The translations under genes were made by a program, and so were the position numbers. The notes beneath the pieces are model-generated. The model searched no databases, was not told the origin of the DNA, and was given only the letters and a program-made list of their open reading frames with translations. DNA of 64,000 nt from Antedon bifida (lineage: Eukaryota > Echinodermata > Crinoidea > Comatulida > Antedonidae), in assembly GCA_963402885.1 (NCBI GenBank), contig OY727100.1, positions 62,001 to 126,000 on the forward strand, written 5' to 3'. Shown one piece after another: positions 18,601 to 21,600 of this stretch. Position 1 is the stretch's first letter; each line of letters starts with the position of its first letter.

Positions 18601-21600
18601 CTTACATATGTAGGTAGTCTGTGGCTGACAACCCTTACATTTCACTTACATATGTAGGTAGTCTGTGGCTGACAACCCTTACATTTCACTTATATATGTA
18701 GGTAGTCTGTGGCTGACAACCCTTACATTTCACTTACATATGTAGGTAGTCTGTGGCTGACAACCCTTACATTTCACTTACATATGTAGGTAGTCTGTGG
18801 CTGACAACCCTTACATTTCACTTACATATGTAGGTAGTCTGTGGCTGACAACCCTTACATTTCACTTACATATGTAGGTAGTCTGTGGCTGACAACCCTT
18901 AAATTTCACTTACATATGTAGGTAGTCTGTGGCTGACAACCCTTCCGTCAGAGTGGCTATTCAAGCGTTATATGTGTTAAAAGTCAAAGAAAACTAAAAT
19001 CATTCTCTACCTGACGATTATCAGTTTCAATCATTTGTCGAGCTGTAGAGTAGAATTCACCAATAAGATCTGGTGCACTTGCTTCGTCATGATCGAAACA
19101 TAAAACCTGCAAAATGAATGTTATGATGATCATGCAATCTAACCTAAAGCATGCCCTTCAAAACATTAGTCACTGTTATCACAACAATGATTGAATGCGG
19201 ACGTCATTCTTATACCTGTTTAAATTTTTCCAACTGTCTGAGAGTTGTGTAAAACTCACCAATCAAATCATGCTTACCATCAAAATCATGATCCCAGCAT
19301 TTTATCTAAAACAAATTCAATTTTCAATTTATTTCAAAGAGTGTGCTGCTACACTAGCTGTGTATAAAGTAAAAATGTATATTAAAAACACATGATACAA
19401 ATGATAAATCAGTATCATCATTTGTTCAGCATATTTCCATTACCTTTATTCGTTTGTCAAGGTTTCCACTACACAGGTCCATGACAGGAATGCTAAATGG
19501 TTTCCATGTTGGCTTTAATGTGTTTTTTACAACCTTTGAACAAAGTAAAAATCAAATGTTTTATTGAGTAAAAAGGTACAATAGAACAAACTATATTTGC
19601 ATTACTTAATTACTATATGACTCACCTCAGTTGTGTGAACTTTATACCACTCATCCGCATTAGTACTTTCTTTAAAAAATTCTAAGAAAGGGTCTGATTT
19701 ACCGACAACATCCTATGAAATGTAAAAAAAAATCAAGATTTGAGAGCATGGCATAGTGTATGAATGAATATAGCGGCTGTGAATCAAGATATTTACCTTC
19801 TTGTCTAAATGAGTTGCTCTGAATGAAAGAATAACAGCATCATTGTTCTCAGCTACCTCATCTGCTTTTATCTGATACAAGATACAATCATAATCACTTT
19901 GAATTATATTAAAATTATAATCTATTACTGTGCTACGGACATCGTGACAGTTTTACATAAAAGCATACACAAAATAACCCCACTGGTATGCAAGGTAACA
20001 GGCCACACACTCAGTAACAAGAATTTATTGAAAGATAAAAAATACTTTAGTGAAACATTGCCAATGAGCTTGCAGTGACGTTATTAACATGCTAAAACAC
20101 TAAGTGATATACCATATAAGTCTATCAATTAGCTACAAACAAACTGTCCACAACTACCCAACAAATAATATCATTAAACTTGCTTTTAAATGTCAATTTA
20201 GAGGCTTTTGCTATTTTACTCACCATAATAGAACTTTTGCCTGTATTTGACATAGTAGTACTGTATATTTTAGCAGAAACAATCTGAAAAATCAATTATT
20301 CTTGAAACTGAATGTAACTTGATAAACAAGATATAATGGCAACTACAAATTAACATATTATCATTCCAATTGTTATATAACTAAATCATATTCATCAGTA
20401 TTTTATCTCTCTTTCATTTAACACCAATCTCTTTTTTACTACTTTTTTTCCAAGTTAAAACAAATGAATCTTACCTGACCCAGAGTACATTCCATGGAAC
20501 CAAGAAAATCATCATCGTTGAATGAAGCTGTATCATTATCTAGATCGTACACCATAAATTTCAACTTCTGTACTTCTTCAAATTTGTAATCAACAAAGAT
20601 GGCCTTTCCAAATTTTGGATTTAGAGTATTTGATAATCTCTCAGTTCTACCAACCTGAAAAAAGGTGTTAGGGTTAAGAGTAATTTAAGGTTTCAAGTAA
20701 TAACAAAAACATAGATATTAGTTATAAAAAATGAATTATTAATAATAATATCCTGGATTTATATAGTGCCTAATGTTGTGAAACCTCTAAGCGCTGTACA
20801 TAAACTAATACGATAAAAGGGATTCCAAACATGGCAAAAAAAACCCAAACCGAAGTAAGGGGATACTTCGTTGCTAACCAGGGATCGGTCTAATTGAACC
20901 CCGGTCAGCACCAGTTGTGTCTCGGTCATCCCGGACTCAGGCGCCTCCTGCTCTACTTAAACTAGATCTAAAACAATCTAGGTGTCATGGAAAAGGAGAA
21001 AAGAAGGGGAATTACCTCTGTATTATTATCCATGTCAAAAATAACAACTATAGGGTCTGACAAAGATAAGGCATCTTTATTCAGTAGGTTTTTGCACTCA
21101 ATGTGAAGTTCAACCTTTGTCGCAAGATTCTGCTGCATTGCAGGAACTGCCATCTTTTTTTCTATAAATAAATAATAAATAATTACATGAAAAGAAGCGA
21201 GACAATAAATTAATGTAATCACAAATACTGAATATTCTAAAGGCCAATGTAATGTACTGTATGAGTATACTATACTCATATGGTAATTAATTAGTATAGA
21301 TAGACAGACAATATATGTATGTAGTAATGTAAATCCAAATATGGCGTTTTTAATGGCTAAAGTAGTGGCATATTCATGAAATTACGCAAGTATACGTATC
21401 GTAGGCTGTTAATCAAAATACTTGATCTATATTTATCATTCAATTAAGTTACTCTCACTTTGAAAAGGATTAGGTTGCCACATACATGATGATACAAATG
21501 ATATGCGTACAGCTAAGTCAAAATGATTACAAAACAAAATTATTATAAGCTACTGTTTGCAATGTAATACATTCACGTTTTGTTTCTAGTTTTTGCTATA

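Follow-up and report, generated by a model that had tools for sequence, protein, structure and literature searches.

In invertebrates, C2 domains of Syt1, Syt34 and Esyt2 are reported to be recoded by mutually exclusive exons, and comparing the altered forms may reveal how C2 domains operate (PMC2823689). Beyond the C2 fold, exons A and B of CBD2 in the exchanger NCX1 are mutually exclusive, and the choice between them alters Ca2+ binding (PMC4746289). Copines are conserved calcium sensors in which natural variants of this kind would be informative. The human members of the family are alternatively spliced, mostly by deletions or alternative N-termini, and one isoform of human Copine 7 carries a 75-residue loop in C2A; we found no swap of homologous exons among the isoforms described there (PMC10968396). 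According to the same source, C2B is the dominant domain in membrane translocation of copines and the effect of splicing on function is not clear (PMC10968396). Within the open PMC literature, covered mostly as titles or passages, we found no mutually exclusive exon pair described for a copine, and the words "copine" and "CPNE" have no occurrence in the main text of a survey of human clusters (PMC5740500), as is the case for "C2 domain" in PMC9741552.

Here, we followed up a candidate pair of such exons, 8A and 8B, in a copine gene of the crinoid Antedon bifida, located within a stretch of 64,000 nucleotides that was analyzed as a whole (the window). A sequence-only reading had proposed that the two exons switch Ca2+-binding loop 3 of the C2B domain. 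What stood of this interpretation were homologous, frame-compatible, old and constrained C2B exons in an otherwise intact copine gene, while we infer the exclusivity of their use and the functional effect. The pair is probably a mutually exclusive C2 exon pair, apparently new for copines and of a kind already known in other C2 proteins.

A copine gene with exon 8 in duplicate

The exons of the gene were located by reading splice sites, and every junction consists of a donor GT and an acceptor AG (Table 1). The joined frame is free of internal stops and ends in a stop codon. Use of one copy gives 539 aa (8A) or 541 aa (8B), in agreement with the anticipated length of about 540 residues; inclusion of both would give 571 aa and omission of both 509 aa. 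A full-length Pfam scan, carried out for the 8A form, returned Copine with 299 bits at residues 316-534 plus two C2 stretches, and this order of two N-terminal C2 domains followed by the copine vWA domain identifies the predicted protein as a copine. Among proteins of solved structure, the plant copine BONZAI 1 (BON1) gave the best sequence match, with residues 20-527 aligned. No relatives of the 539-aa form were found in collections of prokaryotic and viral contigs (22 and 2 pattern matches, respectively, 0 confirmed), which are uninformative on animals, and Rfam gave 0 matches in the window at the gathering threshold.

Table 1 Features of the copine locus, in coordinates of the window.
Feature	Position	Strand	Description
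Copine gene	12608..24311	-	From the predicted start to the stop codon; 15 coding exon positions, with two copies of exon 8
Exon 6	19626..19712	-	Constant; loop-1 aspartates (DVVGKSD)
Exon 7	19444..19533	-	Constant, upstream of the pair; phase 0 end (...LDKRIK)
Exon 8A	19216..19305	-	90 nt, 30 codons; C2B segment with loop 3
Intron 8A-8B	19107..19215	-	109 nt
Exon 8B	19011..19106	-	96 nt, 32 codons; homologous C2B segment, altered loop 3
Intron 8B-exon 9	16874..19010	-	2137 nt; contains a 44-bp minisatellite
Exon 9	16787..16873	-	Constant, downstream of the pair

In our reading of the gene model, 8A and 8B lie exactly where the sequence-only reading had placed them, both with phase 0 at start and end and with intact AG/GT borders. 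Each exon of the pair encodes part of a C2 domain: with neither exon, the C2B region scores 31.0 bits against Pfam C2, and this rises to 57.1 bits with 8A and 49.0 bits with 8B. Against plant BON1, which served as the sole comparison for the notion that known copines possess one such segment, the C2B stretch scored 53.3 bits with 8A and 35.0 bits with 8B.

The neighborhood of the gene holds further coding candidates. A NUDIX-domain open frame (10742-11359, plus strand) lies about 1.2 kb past the copine stop codon and is directed towards it. Elsewhere, an open frame at 34722-35267 (plus strand) contains an mRNA cap guanine-N7 methyltransferase domain (151 bits), and a single long open frame at 50560-52398 (minus strand), 612 aa from stop to stop, combines a B-box with NHL repeats in a TRIM-like arrangement.

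Age and coding constraint of the pair

The homology of the two exons, as previously proposed, was borne out by a local BLOSUM62 score of 78, a value reached by 0 of 5000 shuffles (mean 16.6, maximum 42). Over 30 aligned codons, 14/30 residues and 48/90 bases are identical. Synonymous sites are near saturation (pS 0.83 vs pN 0.38; Fisher test p 0.001 or 0.007 under two ways of rounding the fractional counts), and the flanks show no similarity beyond chance, with 377/500 shuffles upstream and 498/500 downstream scoring at least as high as the observed sequences. When 8A was evolved in silico under a simple neutral model to the same nucleotide identity, none of 20,000 simulations kept 14/30 residues and 2,379 were stop-free. 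8B had a coding score of 8.3, compared with 5.3 for 8A, and the value of 8B was reached by 0 of the 472 open windows among 5,560 overlapping 96-base windows drawn from seven noncoding stretches of the copine gene. This codon score was trained on the other copine exons and on two long open frames of the window, which were read from stop to stop and so include a few untranslated codons, and it is near zero for two short copine exons (4 and 10).

Because silent sites are near saturation, replacements are fewer, flank similarity has vanished and 8B scores as coding, 8B is an old exon kept by selection. The duplication of exon 8 is old, and both copies have evolved under coding constraint during most of the time since it arose. 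A recent or assembly-made duplication was ruled out by the dissimilar flanks together with the 48/90 identical bases, and a chance open frame by the homology shuffles, the neutral simulations and the coding score.

The same data bear on the idea that 8B is a relic, once used and now unspliced, with its decay yet to come. The larger distance of 8B from BON1 and its weak donor would fit such a history, but 8B has kept its splice sites, an open frame, the D-x-D...DLIGEFY core and a coding score while silent sites came close to saturation, and the neutral simulations never retained as many residues. The evidence for selection on 8B comes from one genome and is compatible with a very recent loss of use; altogether we consider a relic highly improbable.

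No third copy of exon 8 was present among the AG..GT candidates of the copine gene. When all six frames of the window were searched with 8A (windows of 45 residues in steps of 10, minimum score 35), 14 windows were returned, 12 of them over 8A/8B and two weak and unrelated ones (score 41) near 27,430-27,460.

Tandem repetition is frequent in the window. A 44-bp minisatellite (18110-18944; 18.9 copies, 97% matches) takes up a large part of the intron that separates 8B from exon 9, and further arrays with units of 36-94 bp occur, e.g., at 22247-23771, 37712-38937, 42917-45315 and 60440-60911. A 118-bp unit is present twice at 56701-56935 (97% matches) within the long open frame 56601-57074 (plus strand), for which Pfam gave no match at 0.001. 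In contrast to the old 8A/8B pair, a tandem duplication of 136 bp at 41660-41937 (2.0 copies, 97% matches) is young. On the minus strand, it copies the acceptor and the first part of a Na+/H+ exchanger exon, which was read at 41617-41784 (Pfam Na_H_Exchanger, 40.3 bits); by our reading, the upstream copy is without a donor and continues into the next acceptor.

Probable exclusive use and its possible enforcement

Mutually exclusive exons are predicted from similar length, the same phase, matching splice sites and at least 15% of the self score (PMC3228551). 8A and 8B are adjacent internal exons of 90 and 96 nt with phase 0-0 and GT-AG borders, and constant exons lie on both sides. In our re-implementation of the WebScipio principles, which is not WebScipio proper, the pair scored 0.401 and 0.408, against a threshold of 0.15. 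The scan covered 14 exons, leaving out the first and last coding exon, and 4044 non-overlapping AG..GT candidates. For none of the 12 other scanned copine exons did a candidate exceed 0.075; against 8B, a sub-fragment of 8A reached 0.136 in this candidate scan.

The reading that we favor, and hold to be very probable as a whole, is an ancient tandem duplication of copine exon 8 that would have been retained as an alternative, mutually exclusive pair. Each mRNA would then include either 8A or 8B and encode a copine of normal length, and the two forms would differ in one C2B segment, namely loop 3 and its flanking strands. We regard the duplication itself, its age, the coding constraint and the compatibility of the frames as established at the level of the sequence, whereas mutual exclusivity, its regulation and a functional difference are proposed.

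An alternative to exclusivity is that some or all transcripts carry both exons, as a cassette or constitutively, which would lengthen C2B by about 30 residues (571 aa). Such a double form is open, since the length of each exon is divisible by three and the phase is 0. The 109-nt intron is within the size range that is spliced elsewhere in this copine gene, and the 75-residue loop that one Copine 7 isoform carries in C2A provides a precedent for an enlarged domain (PMC10968396). Against Pfam C2, the double form (61.7 bits) scores no lower than the 8A form (57.1 bits), but the matched stretch halts inside 8A and 8B contributes nothing to it, and inclusion of both would probably place a second strand-loop-strand unit within the core of a compact beta-sandwich. 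Moreover, in a survey of the X chromosome of D. melanogaster, only 90 of 16,180 exons without annotation as mutually exclusive shared such features with a neighbor (PMC3228551), a rate from another animal that favors the exclusivity reading without being proof of it. Of the 65 internal exons predicted in the same survey, 26 already carried the annotation as mutually exclusive at that time, and its authors considered that some of the remaining ones might be constitutive or differentially included (PMC3228551). Joint inclusion thus described appears unlikely to us, and mutually exclusive use is very probably the correct reading of 8A and 8B, judged from gene structure.

How might exclusivity be enforced? 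A frameshift is absent as a means, as both the double form (571 aa) and the form without either exon stay in frame; nonsense-mediated decay would therefore leave such products. Among human clusters, 377 (60%) include exons not divisible by three, so that the remainder manage without a frameshift (PMC5740500). None of these mechanisms is a requirement for mutually exclusive exons. Two further ones found no support: the 109 nt of the intervening intron compare with introns of 84, 92 and 107 nt in the same gene, so that size does not bar its splicing, and by inspection the splice sites look like U2-type GT-AG and not like U12 sites. RNA pairing of the flanking introns was within the range of shuffled sequences (best 21/200), with a z of -1.8 for the whole 484-nt stretch.

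Steric hindrance, in which the branch point of 8B would lie too near the donor of 8A, is the mechanism of OGDH exons 4a/4b, for which a limit of about 50 nt between branch point and donor is cited and the human branch points are 25-41 nt from the 5' splice site (PMC7969005). A distance below 50 bp also served as the criterion of potential interference in the human survey, where it applied to 57 clusters (9%; PMC5740500). In the 8A-8B intron, the top branch-point-like motif by matrix score is GACTAAT; its A, at +50, is 59 nt away from the 3' splice site. This position sits at the limit, not below it; three AG dinucleotides intervene before the acceptor, contrary to a distant branch point; a proximal candidate for 8B, TCATAAC, is found just 14 nt from the 3' splice site; and several other introns likewise have their top-ranked motif at a distance above 50 nt from the acceptor, e.g., 3-4, 9-10 and 13-14. 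Within the exclusive reading, we therefore view steric hindrance as a doubtful mechanism.

The donors of 8A and 8B were the two weakest of 15 (69.9 and 71.4) when scored with a vertebrate matrix; with a matrix derived from the gene itself, they ranked 14th and 12th of 15, and exons 10 and 14 were similarly weak. We infer that regulation most likely involves tissue-specific splicing factors acting on these two rather weak donors.

The proposed loop-3 swap and its relation to known systems

The loop change had been described as D-G-K-H to A-S-A-P; aligned correctly, it is F-D-G-K-H in 8A and E-A-S-A-P in 8B. In the same way, the assertion that the Ca2+-binding aspartates are kept holds for the three canonical ones of loop 3, present in both exons, and fails for an additional aspartate at loop position 5 of 8A, which is lost in 8B. 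We take the canonical loop-3 pattern to be D-x-D-x5-D, with its three aspartates present in 8A as well as 8B, and the loop-1 aspartates of the constant exon 6 would presumably supply the rest of the Ca2+ site whichever copy of exon 8 is present. Read from the sequence, the C2B loops thus hold the conserved aspartates whichever exon is used. The motif DLIGEFY is identical in both exons, and G-K-H is common to 8A and plant BON1 and absent from 8B. The net charge is -1 for 8A, with four lysines, and -5 for 8B, with zero lysines (histidines uncounted).

Because the loop-3 aspartates are kept and those of loop 1 are shared, both forms should bind Ca2+. Form B is predicted, most likely, to have a higher Ca2+ need, weaker binding to anionic membranes or other partners. 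A calcium or lipid response tuned by exon choice is a reasonable suggestion, as the swap falls on loop 3, keeps the three aspartates and alters the tip and the local charge. Going further, one gene might yield, under the control of splicing, two copines with different thresholds for Ca2+ and phosphatidylserine via the loop-3 exon of C2B, a switch that we propose tentatively and rate as nearly as probable as its absence. Under a different version of the exclusive reading, 8A and 8B would be used in different cells with the same calcium and lipid response, the change being neutral or related to partners. The unchanged loop-3 aspartates and DLIGEFY are in line with an equal response, but the loss of four lysines and the shift in charge from -1 to -5 near a membrane-facing loop make an electrostatic effect likely, and we deem this version somewhat unlikely.

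Two natural variants of loop 3 in one gene offer a ready-made comparison of the residues that set the calcium and lipid response. If exclusivity is true, copines would join the C2 proteins with independently evolved exon-swapped C2 domains; if the switch of Ca2+ threshold is also true, it would be the first in copines and independent of those in synaptotagmins, extended synaptotagmins and NCX.

Among the known systems, the exons of Syt1, Syt34 and Esyt2 resemble the copine pair in that alternative exons recode part of a C2 domain of a Ca2+/lipid-binding protein, which in Caenorhabditis Syt1 is the central part of C2B (PMC2823689). They belong to other families, whereas the putative copine swap concerns loop 3 of C2B with its flanks. 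CBD2 of NCX1 resembles the copine C2B as a calcium-binding beta-sandwich that contains a pair of exclusive exons, the exclusivity being our reading in the copine, and differs in that it is a Calx-beta domain of an exchanger and not a C2 domain (PMC4746289). Furthermore, CBD2 with exon B binds no Ca2+ and exclusion preserves the frame in NCX1 (PMC4746289), in contrast to the copine, in which the aspartates are kept and the frame with both exons included is open. OGDH exons 4a/4b are likewise tandem exons with a size-restricted intervening intron, and that pair sets the Ca2+ sensitivity of an enzyme; exclusivity in OGDH is achieved via distant branch points (PMC7969005), whereas the corresponding sign in the copine is borderline and contradicted by the intervening AGs.
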